Shown here piece by piece: positions 3,827-53,756 of a stretch of 64,000 bases of DNA (positions are counted from its first letter, which is position 1; the number at the start of each line of letters is the position of its first letter). The notes beneath the pieces were generated by a model, which saw only the letters and a program-made list of their open reading frames with translations, did not search any database and had not been told where the DNA came from. The DNA comes from Magnetococcales bacterium (GTDB lineage Bacteria > Pseudomonadota > Magnetococcia > Magnetococcales > Magnetaquicoccaceae): positions 186,001 to 250,000 of the forward strand of contig JAANAU010000001.1 in the NCBI GenBank assembly GCA_011089965.1, read 5' to 3'. A program made the translations under genes and the position numbers.

Positions 3827-4699
3827 TCAAACACCCAGGATAAATCCAGCAAACACAATCCCTCCAAACCATTTGTTCGACAAAAAAGCGCGCAGGGCCA
3901 TCTCCGTGGCCCGATGACGAATCCGATGGAGTTGCCACAGACCGTGCAGCAGGGCGGTCAATACCAGAGCATCATAATAGCCGTTCAACGCCATTCGTTG
4001 GCCGATGATCCAGAGCAGCACCACCGTCACCAGATACAAGAGACCAATGGCCGCCAGATCGAAACGTCCAAAAAAGATCGCTGTGGAGTGGACGCCAACC
4101 TTCAGATCATCCGCACGATCCATCAAGGCGTAAATGGTATCAAATCCCATGGTCCAGGTGAGGGCTGCCAGAAACAACAGCCAGGTCTCCAGGGTCAGGG
4201 TCTGCGTCACCGCCACCCAGGCAATGGGCACCCCCCAGGCAAAAGCCATCCCCAAATGCAACTGTGGTACAGGAATGAACCGTTTGGCAAAAGGATAGGT
4301 CAAAGCGAGCAAAGCCCCGGCCACACAAAGGGCCAGGGACATGGGAGGCAACAACAAACCCAATACCAAGGCAACGGTCAATAAAAAAAACAACAAACGC
4401 CTGGCTGCCCCCAACGAAATGCGACCAGCGGCCAAAGGACGATTGCGGGTCCGGGTCACCAAAGGGTCGATGTCGCGGTCGGTGATGTCATTGGCAACAC
4501 ATCCCGCCGAACGCATCACAAAGGCCCCCAAAGAGAAAATCACCAACAATGACCATGAGGGACGGCCCTGGCTGGCCGCAGCCAATCCCCACAGTGCGGG
4601 CCACAACAACAGCCAGGTGCCAATCGGACGATCCGCCCGCATCAACAACAAAGACTCCCGCAGCCAGGGAATCGGCACATGCCCAATCCAGGTATTCAT
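3827..4699 (-). CDS. ubiA: 4-hydroxybenzoate polyprenyltransferase
   Basis: UbiA attaches the polyprenyl tail to 4-hydroxybenzoate in the inner membrane, the first membrane step of ubiquinone synthesis. The 290-residue protein is a multi-pass membrane protein with both Asp-rich prenyl-diphosphate/Mg motifs: NDITDRDID at residues 70-78 and DRADD at 194-198. The start is the ATG at 4699, which overlaps the ubiC stop as ATGA. A longer open frame upstream (to 4846) only runs antisense-like inside ubiC and lacks family similarity. Gene order ubiC-ubiA with coupling fits the pathway, because UbiC makes the substrate of UbiA. The length is normal for the family. Confidence 0.93.
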   Translation of the reverse strand: MNTWIGHVPIPWLRESLLLMRADRPIGTWLLLWPALWGLAAASQGRPSWSLLVIFSLGAFVMRSAGCVANDITDRDIDPLVTRTRNRPLAAGRISLGAARRLLFFLLTVALVLGLLLPPMSLALCVAGALLALTYPFAKRFIPVPQLHLGMAFAWGVPIAWVAVTQTLTLETWLLFLAALTWTMGFDTIYALMDRADDLKVGVHSTAIFFGRFDLAAIGLLYLVTVVLLWIIGQRMALNGYYDALVLTALLHGLWQLHRIRHRATEMALRAFLSNKWFGGIVFAGFILGV

Positions 4700-5271
4700 G
4701 ACGACAGATCCATCAAAAACAGTTCCACAATGCGCCCGCACACCTGACCTGTCACCAGGAAAAGCGAACGTCGTGCAACAAACACATGATCGGATTGAAA
4801 TCCTGCCCGCCTGGCCAATTCGGGCGCATGACAAGCGGCCAGACATACATGCAACCGTTCCACCGATGCATCACGGGCCAGAAACAACGTTCCCAACGGC
4901 TCCGCACCCTGTTCAACAGCCCGACGAATCTCCACAGAGAAGCTGGACAAGGCCAACTCGGAATGGGCAAACACCCAATCGTTGACCCCCAGAGTCAACC
5001 AGGCATGACGCACAAGCAGAGGTTGCGGCGCAGGCAGCCGATACTCCGGCCCCCAAACCTCCCCGTCATCCGCTTCCAAGGTGCCACAGGATTGATGCTC
5101 CAAACGCACCCGCGATGCAACTCCGGTCAGATCCTCCAAACGCCGGGTCAACGAATCCGTGCTGGCCAGCATCACCTGATAATGCCGGGCAATCGACAGA
5201 TCCGCCAATACGGGAAACGGGGATGGCGTCAACCAGGGGGTGATAAACTGCAAAGAAAAGGGCAACGACAT
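4696..5271 (-). CDS. ubiC: Chorismate lyase
   Basis: UbiC cleaves chorismate to 4-hydroxybenzoate and pyruvate, the entry step into ubiquinone synthesis, in the cytoplasm. The 191 residues fit the UbiC/chorismate pyruvate-lyase family in size and layout: SLTRRLED near residue 40, WVFAHSELAL with the conserved W-x-A-x-S pattern, then EPLGTLFL in the second half. UbiC is poorly conserved in sequence, so much of the weight comes from coupling to ubiA (4-bp overlap of stop and start). It is divergent from rsmE, with about 150 bp between the two starts that must hold both promoters. Confidence 0.85.
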   Translation of the reverse strand: MSLPFSLQFITPWLTPSPFPVLADLSIARHYQVMLASTDSLTRRLEDLTGVASRVRLEHQSCGTLEADDGEVWGPEYRLPAPQPLLVRHAWLTLGVNDWVFAHSELALSSFSVEIRRAVEQGAEPLGTLFLARDASVERLHVCLAACHAPELARRAGFQSDHVFVARRSLFLVTGQVCGRIVELFLMDLSS

Positions 5272-5421
5272 GGCTAGCCAGGGGCGTCAGTCCAAACCGG
5301 GTGGATGAGGGTTGCACGGCTGTGGTAAAAAGTATCCTGGATTGAGGCAACAGGGCAATGCACGCCAACATCTCTGGCATGCTGTCCAACGTTTTTTTTC
5401 TCCTTTCTTTCGATAATCGCC

Positions 5422-6162
5422 ATGACACCACGCATCCATGTACCGCAACTCTTGCAACAACATGCCCGCATTGCCCTGGATGACCATGAACGGCACCGGC
5501 TGCTGCGCACCCTGCGCCTGCATGTGGGAGATGCGATCATTCTGTTCAATGGCGACTCCGGCGCATGGCAGGCGCGCATTGTCGAAACCGGTCCACCCTT
5601 GCAGGTCGAACTGGTCGCTCGCATACCGGATGCCCGTGACGCCGCACTCGCCGTCACCCTGATTCTGGGATTGACCAAAAGCGGTGCGATTGAGCTGGCC
5701 GTGCAGAAGGCGGTCGAGTGTGGGGTTGCACGTCTGATCCCCCTTTTGACCCGTTACGGGGTGAGCCGTCCGGATGCCAGACAAAGCGAAAACAAATCCC
5801 GACGCCTGCAACGGATTGTCATCGAGGCTGCCCAACAATGTGGCCGCACCCGGGTTCCGGAGATCCTCGAACCCGCGACCTGGCATGACTTGCCCGGCTT
5901 GCTGGATCCAGGACCGCGCCTTTTGTTCTGGGAAGAGGCCGAAGATGTGCAGGCGGTCCGATTGCGCACGCTGCCCCATCCGGGAGCGGCGGTCACACTG
6001 CTGATCGGGCCGGAAGGGGGACTGACAGCAGAAGAGGTAACCCATGCGCAAGAACAGATGGGGTTTGTGACGGTCTCATTGGGACCGCGCATCCTGCGAG
6101 CCGAAACAGCGGCCATGGTCACGGTGGCTGCCTGTCAACTGTTGTGGGGAGACATGGGATGA
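5422..6162 (+). CDS. rsmE: 16S rRNA (uracil-1498-N3)-methyltransferase
   Basis: RsmE methylates U1498 of 16S rRNA in the assembled small subunit using S-adenosylmethionine. The 246-residue protein has an N-terminal PUA-like part (HHxR-like region HERHRLLRTLRLHVGD) and the SPOUT methyltransferase C-terminus with the knot motifs LLIGPEGGLTAEEV and LGPRILRAETAAMV. The second motif carries the usual LG.RILR.ETA signature. The ATG at 5422 is the first in frame. It is the first gene of a plus-strand run; its TGA overlaps the apbE ATG by 4 bp, although the two functions are unrelated. Confidence 0.95.
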   Translation: MTPRIHVPQLLQQHARIALDDHERHRLLRTLRLHVGDAIILFNGDSGAWQARIVETGPPLQVELVARIPDARDAALAVTLILGLTKSGAIELAVQKAVECGVARLIPLLTRYGVSRPDARQSENKSRRLQRIVIEAAQQCGRTRVPEILEPATWHDLPGLLDPGPRLLFWEEAEDVQAVRLRTLPHPGAAVTLLIGPEGGLTAEEVTHAQEQMGFVTVSLGPRILRAETAAMVTVAACQLLWGDMG

Positions 6163-7199
6163 ACAACTGGCGTGCCTGGGCCGGACTGCTTGCAATCTCT
6201 GGATTATGCGTGCTGTGGCTCCTGGGCAGCCCGCGTCAAGAGCAGGAGGCAACCCTCTCCGAAACCCGTCTGCTCATGGGCACCCTGGTCTCGATCACCA
6301 CCTGGGGTCACACAGAAGATGAATCAACCCGCGTCATGGAGTTGGCCTTTGCAGAGATTGACCGGGTGGAAGCCATGATGAGCCGTTTTCTGCCTGCAAG
6401 TGCCGTAACGCACCTCAACAACGCACCGCGCGGAGAGAAGATCTCCGCACTTCCCACGGAACTGCTCCAGCTCATCCGCCAGGGACTTGAGATCGGGCAG
6501 ATGAGCAAAGGTGCCTTCGATATCGGCCTGGCACCGTTATCCGATCTGTGGGGATTTTCCCGGGAACCGCCACCCGAAGCCCCGCCACCTGCATCCGATC
6601 TACAGCACTGGTTGACGTTGCGCGCCAACCTGCCAGATGCCGCCATCGAGATCACGCCGGATCACCAGCTTCGACTGGCCAATGCAGCGGTAGGGTTGGA
6701 TCTGGGTGGCATTGCCAAAGGCTATGCCGTGGATCGGGCCATGGAGACTCTGTTGGCCAACGGTGTCACCAATGCCTTGATCAATGCCGGAGGAGATATG
6801 CGCCTGGCCGGTTCCAAAGGGGACAAACCCTGGCACATCGGTCTGCGTGACCCGCGTCAACCAAACGGAGTGGTGGCGGTCATGGATATCCACAAGGCGC
6901 GGGCGATCTCAACTTCGGGTGACTATGAACGGTTCTTTCTGGCCAACGGGGTGCGTTATCACCACATCCTGGATCCCAAAACCGCAGCTCCGGCCCGTTC
7001 CGGACTGATCTCGGTGACCGTTCAGGCTACCGATTCAATGACCGCCGACGCCTTGAGTACCAGCCTGTTCGTGCTGGGCGAACAGGAAGGATTGAAACTG
7101 TTGCAACGCTTTCCCGACTGCGAGGCATTGTTGATCCGTGAAGATGGCAGTATGGTGCAAACCTCAGGATTCATCGCCACCCGGAGCAGATCTCCATGA
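6159..7199 (+). CDS. apbE: FAD:protein FMN transferase (ApbE)
   Basis: ApbE splits FAD and attaches FMN covalently to Thr or Ser of extracytoplasmic redox proteins such as the Rnf/Nqr subunits and FMN-binding domain proteins. The 346-residue product starts with an uncleaved-looking membrane segment (residues 5-20; no convincing lipobox), then MGTLVSITTWG, the FAD/Mg site DLGGIAKGYAVDRA, NAGGDMRLAG and the C-terminal DSMTADALSTSLFVLG, all typical. The start is ATG 6159, overlapping the rsmE stop as ATGA; the GTG 15 bp earlier is less likely. It overlaps the NusG domain II gene by 4 bp. That neighbour and the Gx transporter often accompany apbE in flavinylation loci. Confidence 0.95.
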   Translation: MNNWRAWAGLLAISGLCVLWLLGSPRQEQEATLSETRLLMGTLVSITTWGHTEDESTRVMELAFAEIDRVEAMMSRFLPASAVTHLNNAPRGEKISALPTELLQLIRQGLEIGQMSKGAFDIGLAPLSDLWGFSREPPPEAPPPASDLQHWLTLRANLPDAAIEITPDHQLRLANAAVGLDLGGIAKGYAVDRAMETLLANGVTNALINAGGDMRLAGSKGDKPWHIGLRDPRQPNGVVAVMDIHKARAISTSGDYERFFLANGVRYHHILDPKTAAPARSGLISVTVQATDSMTADALSTSLFVLGEQEGLKLLQRFPDCEALLIREDGSMVQTSGFIATRSRSP

Positions 7200-41411: not shown

Positions 41412-42518
41412 TTACGACAGATCCAGACTGATCACGCGACGGATCTCATCGGTCTTGAAACCCAGTGCCATCGGGGTCCGAACCCCTGGAAGGGTGATGA
41501 CATCGTAGATCTCGTTCAACATCCCTTCAAACCGCAGCCAGTGTACTGCGTCACCGGTGCGCAGATCAATCACCTGGATCCCGCAACGCGGCTGGGCGTT
41601 CCGGGCCTGGAGCATCGCATCGAGCGGCAGACCGGAGAAGGTCCGGTTGTGGCGCGGCAGCGAGGTTCCCACCAGGGCAAAATCCCCATGAAAGTGCAAC
41701 CCGCGCAGATAACCGGCACAGAAGGTCACCGGCTCGAATCGTCCGCTCTCCGGTTCGATGTAGCCGAACTCCCCGGAACCGGCATTGAGCAACCAGAGTC
41801 GCCCATTATACCAGCGTGGGGAGTGGGGCATGGAGAGTCCACGGGCGATGATCTCATTGCTGGCCACATCCATCACGATCCCACCGCCGGAACGCAACTC
41901 GCGCCAGCCGTCGGCCACATCCGACTCGCCAACGATGGTCACAAAGGCCGAAGCGCCATCCTTCATGGCCAACCCGTTGAGATGGCAACGATCCTCTGCG
42001 GCGAGTTTGCTGATGAAGGGCGGACGCCACAAGGGCTTGAAACTGTGGGTCTGGCTCAAGGTGGCCAGACAGCCGAACAGGGTGTTGACGAAGACCAGAC
42101 GCCCCGCGCCATCCACCGCCATGTCATGAATATCCAGATCCCCGGTGGTATACCCCACCTGGGGCACATAAAGCCGGTCATACCCATCCTGCCGTTCCCC
42201 AAACCGGAACAGATTCTCGAAACGCCACACCTGATAGAGACTGCTCAGGTAGAAACCGTTCTCCGTGGCACACATCCCCATGCAGCGGTTGAACGTACGC
42301 TCAAAGATCGACAGGTTACCGTTCTCCTTCAAACCGATCAGGAAGAGCTTGCCGATCTGATAGGTGGTCAGAGCGATGGAGAGACGTTGCTCGTCCAACC
42401 AGGCGAGCATCTGCCGCGAGGTGGTGATCTCCATCTGGGGGGATTCGGTCGAGATACTGTAATCCATGCGTTGCATCCGTAGGCTGGAATGGGGGGACGA
42501 CTCCGGTCCAGGAGCCAT
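41412..42518 (-). CDS. TIGR03032 family protein
   Basis: The 368-residue protein belongs to the TIGR03032/DUF4915-type family of uncharacterised proteins with a beta-propeller-like pattern. Characteristic stretches are LSIALTTYQIGKLFLIGL, GYTTGDLDIHDMAVDGAGRLVFVNTLFGCLA, HLNGLAMKDG, MPHSPRWYNGRLWLLNAGSGEFG and LPRHNRTFSGLPL. No signal peptide is visible. The family is sometimes found near TPR and glycosyltransferase genes, but its function is unknown. Several starts are possible; the first ATG at 42518 gives about 30 extra residues before the conserved part and lacks a ribosome site, so the true start may be the ATG near 42432. Confidence 0.8.
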   Translation of the reverse strand: MAPGPESSPHSSLRMQRMDYSISTESPQMEITTSRQMLAWLDEQRLSIALTTYQIGKLFLIGLKENGNLSIFERTFNRCMGMCATENGFYLSSLYQVWRFENLFRFGERQDGYDRLYVPQVGYTTGDLDIHDMAVDGAGRLVFVNTLFGCLATLSQTHSFKPLWRPPFISKLAAEDRCHLNGLAMKDGASAFVTIVGESDVADGWRELRSGGGIVMDVASNEIIARGLSMPHSPRWYNGRLWLLNAGSGEFGYIEPESGRFEPVTFCAGYLRGLHFHGDFALVGTSLPRHNRTFSGLPLDAMLQARNAQPRCGIQVIDLRTGDAVHWLRFEGMLNEIYDVITLPGVRTPMALGFKTDEIRRVISLDLS

Positions 42519-42845
42519 AACAGGGGGAGTGGGAAAAGCGATCCGGAGGGCGTGACGGTCGATGGTCAGAACCGGCGGTTTCCCCCCGTGACGAACGCAA
42601 CCGCAATCGTTGTGCCATGCCCACCTCGAACACTCCCATGAAATCGTCTCCTCCCCGCCCTCTACTCCTAATTGATTGGGGGGTCAGTGTCTCGCTTATC
42701 ATTGGCACAGAGGGAATATCCATAAAATCCATAAAAAATACCCGCATCTCTTTATGCACCGCACCATTGCTTGTAAAGTGGTCCATGGGAGCCATCATGC
42801 TCCCAATACCCCTTGCCTGAACCCATCCACGGAACCAAACAAACC
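42519..42845. other. Intergenic region between divergent genes (327 bp)
   Basis: No gene that I can support. It separates the TIGR03032 gene and the PAS sensor gene. The middle (42700-42780) is AT-rich and contains the tandem word CCATAAAATCCATAAAA near 42719, which may belong to a promoter. No hairpin of note. Confidence 0.5.
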
Positions 42846-45083
42846 ATGCATTTATTGCTTGCCGCCCTGGAAAGACAAACGCTCAAAGTCAAACTGATCT
42901 TTGGATTCATCAGTTTGCTGCTGATCATCCTGGGAATCGGACTGGACAGCCTGCATAACCAGACCATCCTGAATGACAGCATCCAACTGATCCACGATAA
43001 AGGCATGATGGGACTCTCCAAAGCAAAGGATGCTCAACTGAATTACACACTGATTGGCCGCACCCTGCGTCAGGCCATCATTGCCACCGATGCCGAAGGA
43101 CGGGAACTGGCGCTGAAACAGCTCTCCCAAGTCCGCTCACAACTCCCAAAAAATATCGATGACATCCGTACCCGACTCATCCAGGACGAAAATCAGACAT
43201 CGCTGGCTCACTATGAAGAGGCCCTGGCTGCCTATATGCGCGAAGTGGACAAGGCACTGCTGCTGCTCAATGCCAATCAGATTCCAGAAGCACAAATCCT
43301 TGTTGCCTCTCATAAATTTCAGGATGTTGGGATTCACGCAACCGCCAAACTGACCCAAATGATCCAAATCAAGGAACAGGCAGCCAAAGAGGTGGCTCAG
43401 AAAGCACAACACATCGCCCAACACGGTTTGTGGCTGACCGGCTTGTTGGTGACAAGTGGCTTGCTGTCAGGTATCCTGTGCGGAATCCTGGTCGGCCACT
43501 CCATCCGTCGCCCCCTCAATCACATCCGCGATGCCGTCGTGGTCCTCTCACAGGGCCATCTGGATCATCCCATACCCCATGCCGATGCCCCCAATGAACT
43601 CGGAGAACTGGCCCGAGCCATCACCGTGCTGCAAACAGAAGCCCGCCAAATGGAAACTCAACGCTGGATCAAAAGTCACAGCGCGGAAATCTCCGGCGCC
43701 TTGCAAATGGCCTCCACCATGCCCGATCTGGCACAAAAATTCTTCTCAAAAACAGCTCCGGTGATTCAACTGGGGCATGGTGCGTTCTACCTCTGGGATG
43801 AGACCTCCCAACAGTTACACCTGCTCGCCGGTTATGCCCATCTGAATCAACCCAATCCGCAAACCTCTATCGCTATCGGTCAGGGTCTGGTCGGTCAATG
43901 CGCACGGGAACAACAACTCATCATACTGCACAATCCTCCCGCAGAGTATATACGCATTCAATCCGGGCTGGGAACCAGTCCGCCCCGCAGCATCGTGATC
44001 ATTCCGATCCTGCGCAACCGCCAATTGCTGGCGGTCGTGGAACTGGCCACCTTGACCCCATACAACAACGATAAACAAAGCCTGCTCGACCACCTCCTGC
44101 CAATCCTGGCCGTGAGTCTGGAAATCCTGGATCGCAGCAACAAAACCGCCCGCCTGCTGGAAGAAACCCAAAGCCAGGCAGCCAAACTGGAAGAACAAAC
44201 CATCGAACTGGCAGCCCGACAACAACGCATCATCGTCACCGAAGCCTGGTATCGCGGCATCATCGAATCCGCTCCAGATGGCATGTTGGTATTGGATGCG
44301 GCTGGCCACATCACCTTGACCAATCCACGCATCGAAATGATGTTCGGCTATTCCAGCAGCGAATTGATTCATCACTCCATCACCACCCTGATGCCCGATC
44401 TGACCTCATGGGAACAGTTGATGGAGAAAGAAAAATCAACCAATCGCGAACGATATGCCATCCACAAGGAGGGTGCATCCATCCCCCTCGAATATGCCAT
44501 CACCCCCATGTTCCAGAATGACCGGTTGATCGGAACCGTTGTGGTTCTGCGCGATATTACGTTACGCAAACAAACGGAAATGGCTCTGCGCGATCAGTCG
44601 GCATTTCAACAAGCCCTGATCGATACCATTCCCTATCCGGTCTTTTACAAAGGTGCGGATACCCGGTTTCTTGGTTTCAACCGGGCCTACGAGGAGACAT
44701 TCGCCGTGCACAGACAGGATCTCATCGGTAAACGGGTGCTCGATCTGGAATACCTGCCCGAAGCAGACCGCATCGCTTATCAAAACGAAGACGAAATGGT
44801 GATTCATCAGGCCACCTCGGTCCAACGGGAAATGCCCATCCCCTTTGCAGACGGCAAAATGCACGACACCTTGTATTTCGTTTCCGGGTTCCGCCGTGCC
44901 GACGGCACACCAGGCGGACTGGTCGGAACCTTCATCGATGTCTCGGATCGTAAAAAAGTCGAAGATCTGGAGCGCCTGACCCTCCTGACCGTGAAACATG
45001 AGGCGCATATCACTGAACTCAAACGTGAAATCAATGCTCTGGCTGCACAACTGCACCACCCCACCCTCTCTGATCTTCCATAA
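42846..45083 (+). CDS. Membrane sensor protein (4HB-HAMP-GAF-PAS-PAS) without output domain
   Basis: 745 residues. A transmembrane helix (about 17-35) precedes a periplasmic four-helix-bundle region, a second transmembrane helix (about 195-215), a HAMP (SIRRPLNHIRDAVVVLSQGHLD), a GAF-like domain (290-430), a coiled coil, and two PAS domains (from GIIESAPDGMLVLD and from LIDTIPYPVFYKGA). After the second PAS there is only a short helix (LTLLTVKHEAHITELKREINALAAQL), no HisKA, GGDEF, EAL or MCP signalling tip. It may signal through partner contacts. The ATG at 42846 was preferred to an upstream TTG. The carrier-protein cluster starts 149 bp downstream on the same strand. Confidence 0.85.
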   Translation: MHLLLAALERQTLKVKLIFGFISLLLIILGIGLDSLHNQTILNDSIQLIHDKGMMGLSKAKDAQLNYTLIGRTLRQAIIATDAEGRELALKQLSQVRSQLPKNIDDIRTRLIQDENQTSLAHYEEALAAYMREVDKALLLLNANQIPEAQILVASHKFQDVGIHATAKLTQMIQIKEQAAKEVAQKAQHIAQHGLWLTGLLVTSGLLSGILCGILVGHSIRRPLNHIRDAVVVLSQGHLDHPIPHADAPNELGELARAITVLQTEARQMETQRWIKSHSAEISGALQMASTMPDLAQKFFSKTAPVIQLGHGAFYLWDETSQQLHLLAGYAHLNQPNPQTSIAIGQGLVGQCAREQQLIILHNPPAEYIRIQSGLGTSPPRSIVIIPILRNRQLLAVVELATLTPYNNDKQSLLDHLLPILAVSLEILDRSNKTARLLEETQSQAAKLEEQTIELAARQQRIIVTEAWYRGIIESAPDGMLVLDAAGHITLTNPRIEMMFGYSSSELIHHSITTLMPDLTSWEQLMEKEKSTNRERYAIHKEGASIPLEYAITPMFQNDRLIGTVVVLRDITLRKQTEMALRDQSAFQQALIDTIPYPVFYKGADTRFLGFNRAYEETFAVHRQDLIGKRVLDLEYLPEADRIAYQNEDEMVIHQATSVQREMPIPFADGKMHDTLYFVSGFRRADGTPGGLVGTFIDVSDRKKVEDLERLTLLTVKHEAHITELKREINALAAQLHHPTLSDLP

Positions 45084-45232: not shown

Positions 45233-45484
45233 GTGACTCACTCCAATCGAGACCTACTGATCCAATTTCTGGCAACCATCAAACGCCCAGATCTGCCCAT
45301 GGATCGCATCACGGATAACGACGGATTGATCAAATCCGGTCTGATCGACTCTTTGGCCATGCTGGAGATCATCGCCTTCCTGGAGTCGCGCTTCGGTATC
45401 GACTTCTCCGAAACCGGAGTCGATCCGGTCGATCTCGAATCCATTCAGAAAATCCTCGATCTGATTGACAGATATAAGCAATGA
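45233..45484 (+). CDS. Acyl/peptidyl carrier protein (DltC-like)
   Basis: The 83-residue protein is a phosphopantetheine carrier: the attachment Ser 40 lies in SGLIDSLAMLEIIAFLESRFGIDF (GLIDSLAML is the DSL motif) and the fold has the expected four-helix spacing. It resembles DltC and stand-alone peptidyl carriers more than fatty-acid ACP. Its GTG start follows AGGGG closely. It overlaps the MBOAT-like gene by 4 bp. With the adenylation enzyme two genes on, it would carry an amino or other carboxylic acid as thioester to the membrane protein. Confidence 0.9.
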   Translation: MTHSNRDLLIQFLATIKRPDLPMDRITDNDGLIKSGLIDSLAMLEIIAFLESRFGIDFSETGVDPVDLESIQKILDLIDRYKQ

Positions 45485-46917
45485 CTCTTCAGAATCAGGT
45501 CCGTCGTCTGACCCAATTTCATGAAGAACCCTCTCTTCATGCATGGTCAATAACTTCAGTCGGCAATTTTTCCCTATGGTTAATTGTATTACTCATCCTT
45601 TTTCAGACCGAATATCTGTTTCTGGTGCCACTCATGGTACTGGCGCAGATCTTTCCTCAACATCGCACATGGATCATGACCGTGGGTGGAGGTGGACTGT
45701 TTCTGTTCAAAAAATTGAACCAGCTGCAAGTCACCTCTCCCTTCTGGTTTGCCTTTGACACCTTGATGATCGTTGGATTTCTCTATCTGTTCTATCGCAT
45801 CGCCAAATCGTTCGCAAAACTCCCGAAAATCATCAAGAATCATCCGCAACTGTTTCTGCATGCCCTGCTGTGGGTCGGTATCGGCCTGATGTTTCTCTTC
45901 CCAGCCGAGGCACGCCGCGATCCATCCCGGATGCTCGCACTCAACCTGACCGCATGTCTTGTCTTTTTCGCCTTTTTGATCTGGCGCATCGGCTTCATGC
46001 TCTACTCAGGCAAACGCGGCACCATCAAACAACAAGGATTTGTCGAACATCTCATTTACTGCCTGCCCTATCTCGGCTCCAGTCAGGTGCCCTATGGCAA
46101 AGGATTGGACTATCTGAATTCCAAACGCTCTACTGACCGGCTGGAGTTGGCCAGGATTCAACTGGCGGGTCTGAAACTCTTGCTGTTGGCCTCCATCTGG
46201 GAACTGGCCCTGACCGTCGTCGATGCCGCTTTCTTCAGCACCGCGGTCGATGCCGAACCACTCTTCCGACTGCACCATATCTCTGAACTGATTGCCATCA
46301 GCACCCTGCATATGCCAGGACCAGTCACGATCTGGGGCAGCCTCATCGTGGACATGGTCTATGAAACCACCCAACTGGCCATTACCGGCCACTTGATCAT
46401 CGGCTGTCTGCGACTGTTTGGCTTCAACCTGTTCCGCAATACCTACAAACCGCTACTGGCCAGAACCCTGATCGACTTCTGGAATCGATATTATTTTTAC
46501 TTCAAAGAGTTATTGGTCGATTTCTTTTTCTTTCCAGTCTATCTGGCCGTCTTCAAACACCACCCAAAACTGCGCATCTTTGCCGCCACCATGGCATCAG
46601 CCTGCCTGGGCAACCTTTATTATCATGTATTGCAACATTTTGATCTATTGATGATCACCGGTAATTTGCCGTCGTTTGCCCGCTTCTCCTCCTATCTGTT
46701 TTATTCCTTTGTATTGGGTCTGGCCATCTTTGTCAGCATCTTGCGAGAGCAGAATCAACGCGGCCAACCCCATGTGCAACATTCCATCTGGGTGACACTG
46801 CGCAAAATCGCCGGAGTCTGGATCTTTTTTGCCCTGCTGCGCATTTGGGACCACTCCTCTTCGGCATTCATGCAAGATACCACCTTCTTCTTGGCCATTT
46901 TTGGCATACGCCTCTGA
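45481..46917 (+). CDS. MBOAT-like integral membrane acyltransferase (DltB-like)
   Basis: 478 residues with about ten to twelve hydrophobic helices. The motif TLIDFWNRYYFYFKELLVDFF near residue 330 matches the FWRRWHxSLxxWLxDYxY signature of MBOAT proteins such as DltB, PatA and AlgI. A candidate catalytic His is in GNLYYHVLQHF about 45 residues later; the canonical GxWHG is not intact, so activity is not certain. DltB moves the acyl group from the DltC carrier across the membrane to an extracytoplasmic acceptor. Overlaps of 4 bp with the carrier gene and 1 bp with the adenylation gene make one unit. No DltD homologue is present. Confidence 0.75.
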   Translation: MTLQNQVRRLTQFHEEPSLHAWSITSVGNFSLWLIVLLILFQTEYLFLVPLMVLAQIFPQHRTWIMTVGGGGLFLFKKLNQLQVTSPFWFAFDTLMIVGFLYLFYRIAKSFAKLPKIIKNHPQLFLHALLWVGIGLMFLFPAEARRDPSRMLALNLTACLVFFAFLIWRIGFMLYSGKRGTIKQQGFVEHLIYCLPYLGSSQVPYGKGLDYLNSKRSTDRLELARIQLAGLKLLLLASIWELALTVVDAAFFSTAVDAEPLFRLHHISELIAISTLHMPGPVTIWGSLIVDMVYETTQLAITGHLIIGCLRLFGFNLFRNTYKPLLARTLIDFWNRYYFYFKELLVDFFFFPVYLAVFKHHPKLRIFAATMASACLGNLYYHVLQHFDLLMITGNLPSFARFSSYLFYSFVLGLAIFVSILREQNQRGQPHVQHSIWVTLRKIAGVWIFFALLRIWDHSSSAFMQDTTFFLAIFGIRL

Positions 46918-48524
46918 TGCACACCAACATTGCCCACTGGTTTCACAATAGCGCGCTCCAATACAGTGCGCGTCCCGCCCTGTTTGCAGCCAATTGTCAT
47001 CATACCTATGCAGAGCTGCTCCAACAGGTTCAACAACTCGCATCCGCCATCGACCGCCACCATCCGGATCCACCCCACCCCACCGTGGCCATGTTCGGAT
47101 ATCGCTCCCTGACCGCCTATGCGTCGATTTTGGCCATCCTGTATGCTGGCAAAGGCTATGTTCCTCTCAATCCCCACTTTCCGGTAGCCCGCAACCGTCA
47201 CATCATCACGCTTTCAGAGGTCAAACTGCTGATCCTCGATGCCCGCTGCACACCCGAAGCCCAAGAACTGTTGCAACAGGTTCCCAACCCGCTCATCGTG
47301 TTGCTGCCCGATCATCCCACCCGGCCTGACTGGACCGGATCCTTGCAAACACACAGGTTTATCGCCCAGGATGAACTCTTCTCCCAACCTGCCCACATCC
47401 TGGCCCCCAAAACATCTCACGATCCGATTGCCTATCTGCTCTTCACCTCTGGCAGCACAGGCGTACCCAAAGGGGTCATGGTCTCTCACGATAATGTCAA
47501 TGCCTTTGTGTCCGGCATGCTGACACGCTATCAACCCACCTGTGAAGAGCGTTTCTCCCAACACAGCGATCTCACCTTCGATGCCTCGGTCTATGACCAA
47601 TTCGTCTGCTGGGCCGCAGGTGCAACACTCTATCCGATTCCAGAAGCCATGCGCATGGCCCCGGCATCCTTCATTAAAGAGCATGCCCTGACCTTCTGGG
47701 AATCCGTACCGGCAGTGATTTACTTCATGCAACGGCTCTATCAATTGCGTCCAGGTTCGCTGCCTTCATTGCGCTGGTGCATCTTTGGCGGCGAACGATT
47801 GACCCTGGAGGCCGCACGACTTTGGCAGCAGGCTGCCTCGAATGCCACCATCGACAACAGCTACGGCCCAACCGAAGGCACCATCTGCGTTACCGGTTAT
47901 TTTTGGAATCCAGCACGCTCAGAAACAGAATGCCTCAATGGGGTAGTGCCGATTGGACTCCCCTATCCCGGTCAATCCGCAGCCCTGCTGGTCGATGGAG
48001 AACTGGTAACCCCACTGGATGGCATGCGCGGCGAACTCTGCCTCTCCGGTTCCCAGGTCACCCCAGGATACTGGAACAATCCCCAAGAAACCGACCGCAG
48101 CTATTTTGAACAGATGAACAACTCTGGCACAACCAGCCGTTGGTATAAAACCGGTGATCTGGTGCTCTGGCAAGACGGGATTGGTTATCACCATCTGGAT
48201 CGGGTGGACCGACAACTCAAAATTCGTGGCTATCGGGTGGAACTGGCAGAAATCGAACATGTTTTGAGACAAGTCGCCGCCAGCGATCAGGTGGCTGTAG
48301 TCGGGTGGCCGGTCTCTGCGGATAATGTCACTTGTGTCATCGGTTTTGTCTGCGGCTCAAAACGAAGCGATGCCGAAATCCTGAGTGGCTGTGCAACACG
48401 GCTTCCCCCCTACATGGTGCCGCGCCACCTCCAAAGACTGGCCCAACTCCCCCTGAACGCCAATGGCAAAACCGATCTACTGCGTCTGGCTGACCTCGTC
48501 ACTCTGCCCGCCCAGGAGCCTTGA
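46917..48524 (+). CDS. Amino-acid adenylation enzyme (DltA-like / stand-alone A domain)
   Basis: 535 residues. Core motifs: A3 LFTSGSTGVPKGV (175-187), A4 FDASVYD with Asp 222, A5 NSYGPTEGT (314-322), A7 WYKTGDL (409-415), A8 DRVDRQLKIRGYRVEL (428-443) and the A10 Lys 518 in NANGKTD. The Asp 222 is the one that holds the alpha-amino group in NRPS A domains, so an amino acid substrate is likely; which one cannot be read from sequence. It would load the carrier protein of this cluster. The ATG overlaps the membrane gene stop (TGATG). Its end overlaps the convergent peptidase gene by 48 bp. No condensation or thioesterase domain is attached. Confidence 0.88.
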   Translation: MHTNIAHWFHNSALQYSARPALFAANCHHTYAELLQQVQQLASAIDRHHPDPPHPTVAMFGYRSLTAYASILAILYAGKGYVPLNPHFPVARNRHIITLSEVKLLILDARCTPEAQELLQQVPNPLIVLLPDHPTRPDWTGSLQTHRFIAQDELFSQPAHILAPKTSHDPIAYLLFTSGSTGVPKGVMVSHDNVNAFVSGMLTRYQPTCEERFSQHSDLTFDASVYDQFVCWAAGATLYPIPEAMRMAPASFIKEHALTFWESVPAVIYFMQRLYQLRPGSLPSLRWCIFGGERLTLEAARLWQQAASNATIDNSYGPTEGTICVTGYFWNPARSETECLNGVVPIGLPYPGQSAALLVDGELVTPLDGMRGELCLSGSQVTPGYWNNPQETDRSYFEQMNNSGTTSRWYKTGDLVLWQDGIGYHHLDRVDRQLKIRGYRVELAEIEHVLRQVAASDQVAVVGWPVSADNVTCVIGFVCGSKRSDAEILSGCATRLPPYMVPRHLQRLAQLPLNANGKTDLLRLADLVTLPAQEP

Positions 48525-52521: not shown

Positions 52522-52973
52522 CTTCCATGCCGGAATAAAAGTTTTCCTAAACCAAAACCATTTTGGAATGTGTCATTTGTTTTGTTGGGGCGTTGCCCCA
52601 AACCCCACCAAGGGCCATAGGCTCTTGGACCCCCTTGACATAAACAACGCATCCCGAAATGGGTGCTGCGGTTTAATACCGTTCCCGTGAAATGGAAATG
52701 ATAACCCATTTCGTTCTTGTCCGTCCAGTTTACTCTTGAATAAACGTTATCTCACATCCACTTTTTTCCCCGTACCCTACCACAGTCGGTCCAACAGACC
52801 GACAACACCGTTTCACCGCAGCATGTAGACAAAAAAATGACATAAAAAACAATAAACTAGCATTGCAAAAACCATCAAAGTACGCTATTCTGACACGCAC
52901 CAATAGACAAAAACCCCCATTCTGTCTATCTGACAAACAAAAAAGATACAACAAAATTCCGAGGAAGGATAAA
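52522..52973. other. Intergenic region (452 bp) with a palindromic repeat and an AT-rich half
   Basis: No gene is supported. The left half contains the nested hairpins listed separately; the right half (52740-52970) is AT-rich and probably carries the promoter of the repeat protein. The words TTGGAATG and CATTTCC near 52564 and 52690 may be part of further weak hairpins. Confidence 0.6.
52584..52638. repeat. Intergenic palindromic element of the GGGGCGnTGCCCC...CCAAGG type
   Basis: GGGG-CGTTG-CCCC forms one hairpin (52587-52599). CCAAGGGC and GCTCTTGG around CATAG form a second (52608-52628). The pattern GGGGCGYTGCCCCAAACCCC-ACCA-AGGG...-TGGACCCC is known from intergenic repeats in many Proteobacteria. 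I saw only one copy here. It could act as a bidirectional terminator between cobU and the upstream region. Confidence 0.6.
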
Positions 52974-53756
52974 ATGAAAATTGATGAAGAGATCCGCAAT
53001 CAGGTCATCATTACTGCGGTCACAATTGGCTTTCTGTTGATGCTGGTGGACACTGTCATGGATGAAAAGGGATTACAACCCTCCCGGCAGACCATGACTC
53101 AAACAGTCACCAAACCCGCAACGGATCAAAATGCCAAAGCAGCCCCGGAAGCAGGCAAAGCCACTCCTCAGACCAAACCTGTGGTTCCTGCTGCGACTCC
53201 GGCCAAGAGCGAACCCGTACCCCCATCCGCAGCCAAAAGCCCACCGACACCGGTGGCACTGATCAAAACCGAAGCTGCGGTACTGACCGCCAAGAGTGAA
53301 CCTGTTGCTTACGATATGCAAGCCTACAAGGATGCCCTGGCCAAAGGGGCAGCACAAAAAGAACCGACCATTCAGAGAGATTCAACCCCGGCAGCCGCCT
53401 CAACCAAAGTCACGCCTGCCCTGGTCAACGAGCCGGTGGCGTATGACATGCCAGCCTACAAGGATGCCTTGGCCAGGGGGGCAGCAGAAAAAGAGAACCT
53501 CTCCAAACAGAGTGCCGAAACCCCAGTGCTTATGGCCAAGAATGACCCCATCGTGGCATATGACATGCAAGCCTACAAGGAGGCTTTGGCCAGAGGGGCA
53601 GCAGACCGGAATCCATCCGCCCCACAGCCCTCGTCAGCCCCTGCTCCGACTCCTGCGGCTCCTGTAGCCAATAATGACCCGGTGGTCGCTTATGACATGC
53701 AAGCCTACAAAGAGGCCTTGGCCAGAGGCGCGGCAGAACAGGCCAAAACAAAATAG
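52974..53756 (+). CDS. Membrane-anchored protein with four VAYDMQAYKxALAxGAA repeats
   Basis: I do not recognise this protein. 260 residues: a transmembrane helix at about 11-28 (VIITAVTIGFLLMLVDTVM), a Pro/Ala/Lys/Thr-rich spacer (40-100), then four copies of an 18-residue motif VAYDMQAYKDALAKGAA at about 111, 155, 194 and 238, spaced 40-44 residues, the last one at the C-terminus. The spacer implies an extended periplasmic (or cytoplasmic) arm carrying four identical binding sites. GAGGAAGG precedes the ATG by 6 bp, which fixes the start. btuF begins 82 bp downstream on the same strand. Confidence 0.85.
   Translation: MKIDEEIRNQVIITAVTIGFLLMLVDTVMDEKGLQPSRQTMTQTVTKPATDQNAKAAPEAGKATPQTKPVVPAATPAKSEPVPPSAAKSPPTPVALIKTEAAVLTAKSEPVAYDMQAYKDALAKGAAQKEPTIQRDSTPAAASTKVTPALVNEPVAYDMPAYKDALARGAAEKENLSKQSAETPVLMAKNDPIVAYDMQAYKEALARGAADRNPSAPQPSSAPAPTPAAPVANNDPVVAYDMQAYKEALARGAAEQAKTK

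Follow-up and report, generated by a model that had tools for sequence, protein, structure and literature searches.

What might a carrier protein, a membrane protein and a stand-alone adenylation (A) domain achieve together in a Gram-negative bacterium without DltD? The question is raised by three overlapping genes in the window, by which we mean the whole analysed stretch of 64,000 nucleotides from a bacterium of magnetotactic type (Magnetococcales). An earlier note, made from the letters alone, took them for a Dlt-like system of envelope modification. Carrier-fed aminoacylation of envelopes is known for teichoic acids (Dlt) and for lipid A of Vibrio, where the AlmEFG transferase is unrelated. 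In the open-access literature that we searched, no Gram-negative is described as having an A-carrier-MBOAT trio that lacks DltD. We lean towards the view that the trio is a Dlt-like and AlmEFG-like pathway, which would transfer a cationic amino acid directly to an acceptor of the membrane or envelope.

The three genes and their products

The features considered here are the following:

45233-45484, + strand: carrier protein, 83 amino acids (GTG start at 45233, stop at 45482-45484)
45481-46917, + strand: membrane protein with predicted MBOAT fold, 478 amino acids (ATG at 45481, stop at 46915-46917)
46917-48524, + strand: stand-alone A domain, 535 amino acids (ATG at 46917, stop at 48522-48524)
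42813-45083, ending 149 bp upstream of the carrier gene: membrane sensor with the Pfam domains 4HB-HAMP-GAF-PAS-PAS and no output domain

Coordinates, strand and overlaps of the trio (4 bp between the genes of carrier and membrane protein, 1 bp between those of membrane protein and A domain) are as the earlier note had them. Because of these overlaps, we suggest that the trio is one translation-coupled unit. The sequence AGGGG lies about 7 nt upstream of the GTG at 45233; a scan of the trio region for promoters and terminators gave sites not in excess of shuffled sequence.

The DSL serine ascribed to the carrier is Ser40, the phosphopantetheine site, and the protein matches PF00550 (PP-binding) with E=2e-4, above the Pfam gathering cut-off. 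Its scores with NCBIfam models of DltC-, AsbD- and AmcB-like carriers are weak and far under the cut-offs of those models; the DltC model gives 20.7 bits, its cut-off being 68.

The membrane protein has no sequence match in Pfam, NCBIfam or PDB when searched as single sequence (in PDB also as profile), and PF03062 is matched by none of the 25 aligned family members (24 homologues of the window protein included), even at E=1. Since the family is invisible to Pfam and NCBIfam models, its members are probably all annotated as hypothetical proteins. Its relationship becomes visible in structure prediction. With an AlphaFold2 model built from 16 window and locus sequences (pLDDT 81, pTM 0.81), all 12 top Foldseek matches in PDB are MBOATs: DltB 6bug comes first (E 1.1e-5, TM 0.58/0.66), followed by DltB 8jem, HHAT, MBOAT7, ACAT, DGAT1 and LPCAT3. 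When compared by hhalign, the profile of the membrane protein reached 91-95% with both canonical MBOATs encoded by the host genome, as against 1.6% at most for the controls, namely profiles in reverse and seven further membrane proteins. On the model, the protein is of MBOAT fold with DltB as its best solved match; the fold on which the Dlt-like reading depends is thus predicted.

The histidine motif is indeed non-canonical. In the profile alignment, the first MBOAT histidine (FWxxWH; FWQSWH in a canonical protein) is aligned with Tyr338 of FWNRYY, and both Tyr337 and Tyr338 are invariant in 16 homologues of the trio MBOAT. The histidine left is His382, the sole invariant one of the alignment, which stands at about the right spacing for the second motif (GLWHG-like), in a region aligned without confidence. 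We infer, from an alignment that is locally unreliable, that His382 would be the catalytic histidine.

The A domain matches AMP-binding PF00501 with E=2.8e-66 and exceeds the cut-off of the amino-acid adenylation model TIGR01733; with the DltA model it reaches 239.9 bits, about half of the cut-off of 476. The nearest solved A domains are 8k4r, 6akd and, in third place, 4oxi. Asp222 (numbered from the ATG at 46917), previously taken to indicate an amino acid substrate, is the first residue of the specificity code of an amino-acid-type A domain. The complete code in the window reads D222 A223 Y226 E262 I289 G291 S315 I323 C324 K518. It is nearly fixed as D-A-Y/H-E-V/I-G-S/T-I-C-K, with Glu at position 4, Gly at 6 and Ser at 7, in 15 A domains of the family, sequences which otherwise share 57-75% identity with the window enzyme. 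With a published code for ornithine, DVGEIGSIDK (PMC3992020), the window code has seven of ten residues in common. According to a structural study of an ornithine-activating A domain, module 2 of BacB (the ornithine domain of bacitracin) has a charge-pairing Glu at code position 4, and Ala or another small residue at position 2 accompanies longer diamino substrates such as lysine (PMC10522769). Because the code is near DVGEIGSIDK, with Glu at position 4 and a small residue at position 2, specificity prediction points, as a best guess, to ornithine or lysine. Judged by code resemblance, the substrate is thus fairly probably one of these cationic amino acids, with the reservation that the predictive value of such codes is low outside characterised clades.

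In other lineages, the code of the trio A domain departs widely from this one; a Coxiellaceae MAG, for example, has D-L-F-F-L-A-L-V-S-K. At L029 (3793-7000) and L034 (5690-8762), the same pair of MBOAT and carrier is accompanied by an AMP-ligase that lacks the amino-acid Asp and has G-H-C-S-H at the first code positions. The acyl group there is probably not an amino acid, and on this pairing strict aminoacyl specificity cannot be ascribed to the MBOAT family. From the differing codes and these ligases, it seems that acyl groups of several kinds are handled by this family of transferases.

Distribution and surroundings

A search of further genomes for the trio and for shared neighbours showed that the trio recurs. 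It is present in every genome of the host's Magnetococcales family with completeness of at least 80%. The MBOAT occurs in 15 of the 18 genomes of this family; completeness is 57-77% in the three that lack it. The best relatives of the trio sit on contigs of Magnetococcales MAGs. Homologues of the carrier (53-87% identity) lie next to the MBOAT gene at all family loci whose flanks are complete; carrier and MBOAT stand together in 11 of 11 larger family loci, and the A gene is linked to them in nine. At the remaining two, L022 and L023 (genomes G002 and G001), it is retained on a separate contig and is 65-66% identical. Outside the family, the trio is sporadic (Coxiellaceae, Bradyrhizobium, Rhizobium, Acidobacteria), usually in the order A-MBOAT-carrier. 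Since it is linked in nine of 11 family loci, complete in the other two genomes and present in distant lineages, the trio is not a chance grouping. Among Alphaproteobacteria it is rare (one of 386 sampled genomes; one of 150 in the Bradyrhizobium-like family), so the search there added no new neighbours. We also looked for plasmid carriage of the trio and found none.

In the 11 family loci compared, no gene beyond the three is conserved, and none of their neighbours indicates lipid, LPS or polysaccharide. Of the adjoining genes, the M49-like peptidase gene and the cobalamin genes are common to only four of the 11 loci, the upstream sensor to two. The lack of an output domain in this sensor, pointed out before, agrees with the domain scan. 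That the sensor belongs to the system is not supported by conservation: apart from the window, L026, the closest relative, is the only locus where it accompanies the trio, and we therefore rejected it as a component. Its C-terminal end resembles, by eye, a short coiled coil.

Several further observations concern the surroundings. In the window, 41412-42518 encodes a protein with strong match to TIGR03032/DUF4915, a family of unknown function. In the ORF at 52863-53756, as seen by eye, a peptide like AYDMQAYKEALARGAA occurs four times in an Ala/Pro-rich context, and this ORF adjoins a BtuF-like one. In one relative, L028, an OmpR-type regulator and a histidine kinase (4992-7106) lie just upstream of the trio. 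Their top NCBIfam scores are for PmrA and PhoQ, below cut-offs, which is a hint from a single genome. In Bradyrhizobium, a gene with a C-terminal remnant of an A domain and a methyltransferase domain (by family scan) precedes the trio at L031 (4546-5766); L033 has its counterpart at 4607-5833, judged by position and similar N-terminus. These genes suggest a methylated aminoacyl group.

A distant MBOAT paralogue of 570 amino acids comes with its own A domain at L062 (8748-12380), L063 (6424-14101), L064 (7837-16102) and L061 (4816-8354). The first three belong to other Magnetococcales families, and a carrier also adjoins the paralogue in L061 and L064. Around it, L063 has a sulfatase-family gene, a gene for a membrane protein of 266 amino acids, a phosphatidylserine-decarboxylase-like gene (PF02666) and a TPR gene; ORFs similar to these neighbours were seen by eye in L062 and L064. 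Possibly, the paralogue loci represent a second aminoacyl-lipid system.

Possible routes of the activated amino acid

The genome background narrows down what the trio could do. As the earlier note supposed from the locus, DltD is missing: PF04914 is absent genome-wide, the positive controls of B. subtilis and L. lactis being detected. In Dlt and MBOAT-SGNH systems, a C-terminal FXYXXF is carried by the MBOAT or by DltX, and its Tyr accepts the acyl group and passes it to an SGNH protein (PMC12148441). This motif ends none of the 19 trio MBOATs and none of the four 570-amino-acid paralogues, and no DltX-like small ORF with FXYXXF lies within 4 kb of the trio MBOATs. As an internal control, both canonical MBOATs encoded by the host genome do have the motif, ending in FIYFRF and FIYFQF. 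The genome has neither an NRPS condensation domain (PF00668) nor an MprF-type synthase. Because of the missing PF00668, we rejected membership of A domain and carrier in an NRPS or siderophore pathway, as the Dlt-like reading requires. LpxC is present, so that an outer membrane bearing lipid A is expected; with MprF-type synthase and condensation domain absent, cationic aminoacyl modification of a lipid or of lipid A is plausible.

In the pathway we propose, the A enzyme would adenylate an amino acid, most likely cationic (ornithine or lysine), and load it as thioester onto the phosphopantetheine arm of the 83-amino-acid carrier. The loaded carrier would dock at the MBOAT-fold protein on its cytoplasmic face, and this protein would hand on the aminoacyl group, the acceptor being located in or at the membrane. 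Transfer would most likely be direct, to a membrane lipid or a lipid-linked component of the envelope, with no SGNH relay to a polymer. The envelope would become more positively charged, as with Dlt, AlmEFG and MprF. The parts of this scheme differ in strength. That the MBOAT uses the carrier as donor is very probable. For the acceptor, we give some preference to a membrane lipid or lipid-linked molecule, and on the charge effect our opinion is evenly balanced. Direct transfer is the simplest reading for an MBOAT without FXYXXF and with no DltX- or DltD-like partner. More tentatively, and with some doubt, we can imagine tRNA-independent transfer of ornithine or lysine straight to membrane lipid or lipid A by a single-histidine MBOAT that needs neither shuttle nor SGNH protein, sister trios elsewhere carrying different amino acids.

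Three other routes must be weighed against this. The aminoacyl group might instead travel as in true Dlt, being taken by shuttle to an unlinked periplasmic SGNH protein that decorates a polysaccharide. This is the mechanism of all well-studied bacterial cell-envelope MBOATs (PMC12148441); the genome has further MBOATs, one of which (L037) lies beside ORFs that look SGNH-like (by eye only), and an SGNH partner from a family other than PF04914 could act in trans. The relay would nevertheless have to dispense with DltD and with FXYXXF on the MBOATs, on the paralogues and on nearby small ORFs, and no partner is conserved as a fourth gene in the 11 family loci, so we think it quite improbable. An unlikely outcome, too, is a small diffusible metabolite (an aminoacyl ester or amide, an autoinducer or an antibiotic), formed when the amino acid is moved to a small hydrophobic alcohol or amine. 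Small lipophilic acceptors are among the substrates that MBOATs can acylate, 8k4r and 6akd are annotated as NRPS or stand-alone synthetases, and the methyltransferase added in the Bradyrhizobium loci is reminiscent of natural-product clusters. Such a product is at odds with the absence of a C domain and of any exporter, resistance or tailoring gene conserved beside the trio, and retention across the family fits a housekeeping trait more than a biosynthetic cluster.

The reaction might even run the other way, the carrier-presented amino acid being itself acylated to an amino-lipid similar to ornithine or lysine lipids. The predicted substrate would suit this, and the top-scoring NCBIfam model of the carrier is that of an ornithine-lipid pathway carrier, NF052616. 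The match is weak, however (37.5 bits, cut-off 130), the published OlsH needs no carrier protein (PMC12493201), and the second acyl donor required would call for a further acyltransferase, none of which is conserved beside the trio. We hold this route to be very improbable and rejected the link to ornithine-lipid synthesis (OlsH/OlsI) on the grounds of score and of the carrier-independence of OlsH.

Comparison with known systems

The trio has its nearest counterparts in four known systems. Like MprF-type aminoacyl-phosphatidylglycerol synthases, it may yield a cationic aminoacyl lipid; those synthases are tRNA-dependent, unrelated and absent from the host genome. With the polymer acetyltransferases PatAB and AlgIJ, the trio shares an MBOAT fold in a Gram-negative, and the host genome has two canonical members of this class. 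MBOAT-SGNH acetyltransferases of this kind use acyl-CoA and end in FXYXXF (PMC12148441). The trio MBOAT, by contrast, lacks FXYXXF and is encoded together with an A enzyme and a carrier of its own.

AlmE, AlmF and AlmG add glycine to lipid A in Vibrio cholerae. The resemblance consists in an A enzyme and a carrier in a Gram-negative, no SGNH protein, and 4oxi, which we take to be the AlmE structure, among the three nearest solved A domains. In the alignment with 4oxi, the specificity residues of the trio enzyme differ. AlmG is an LPLAT-domain acyltransferase (PMC3783018), whereas the trio transferase has the predicted MBOAT fold; because of this difference, the trio is not a member of AlmEFG.

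In Gram-positive bacteria, DltA-DltB-DltC(-DltX-DltD) performs D-alanylation of teichoic acids. The trio has the same stand-alone A enzyme, small carrier and MBOAT-fold protein, with DltB as best structural match. It departs from Dlt in the A domain at about half of the DltA cut-off, the carrier under that of DltC, an MBOAT with neither a detectable Pfam MBOAT domain nor the first histidine, the missing DltX, shuttle and DltD, the Gram-negative host, the gene order and the specificity code. The earlier Dlt-like reading therefore stands for the logic of A enzyme, carrier and MBOAT without DltD, which the fold and the lack of a C domain uphold. The trio is not a member of Dlt, as A enzyme and carrier stay under the DltA and DltC cut-offs and DltD and shuttle are absent. 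Eukaryotic MBOATs pass the acyl group directly to a membrane acceptor, and the trio would test whether bacterial ones do so as well. Should our reading be true, an AlmE/DltA-like enzyme joined to a divergent MBOAT without shuttle or SGNH protein would represent, next to Dlt and AlmEFG, a third solution to carrier-fed aminoacylation of the envelope.
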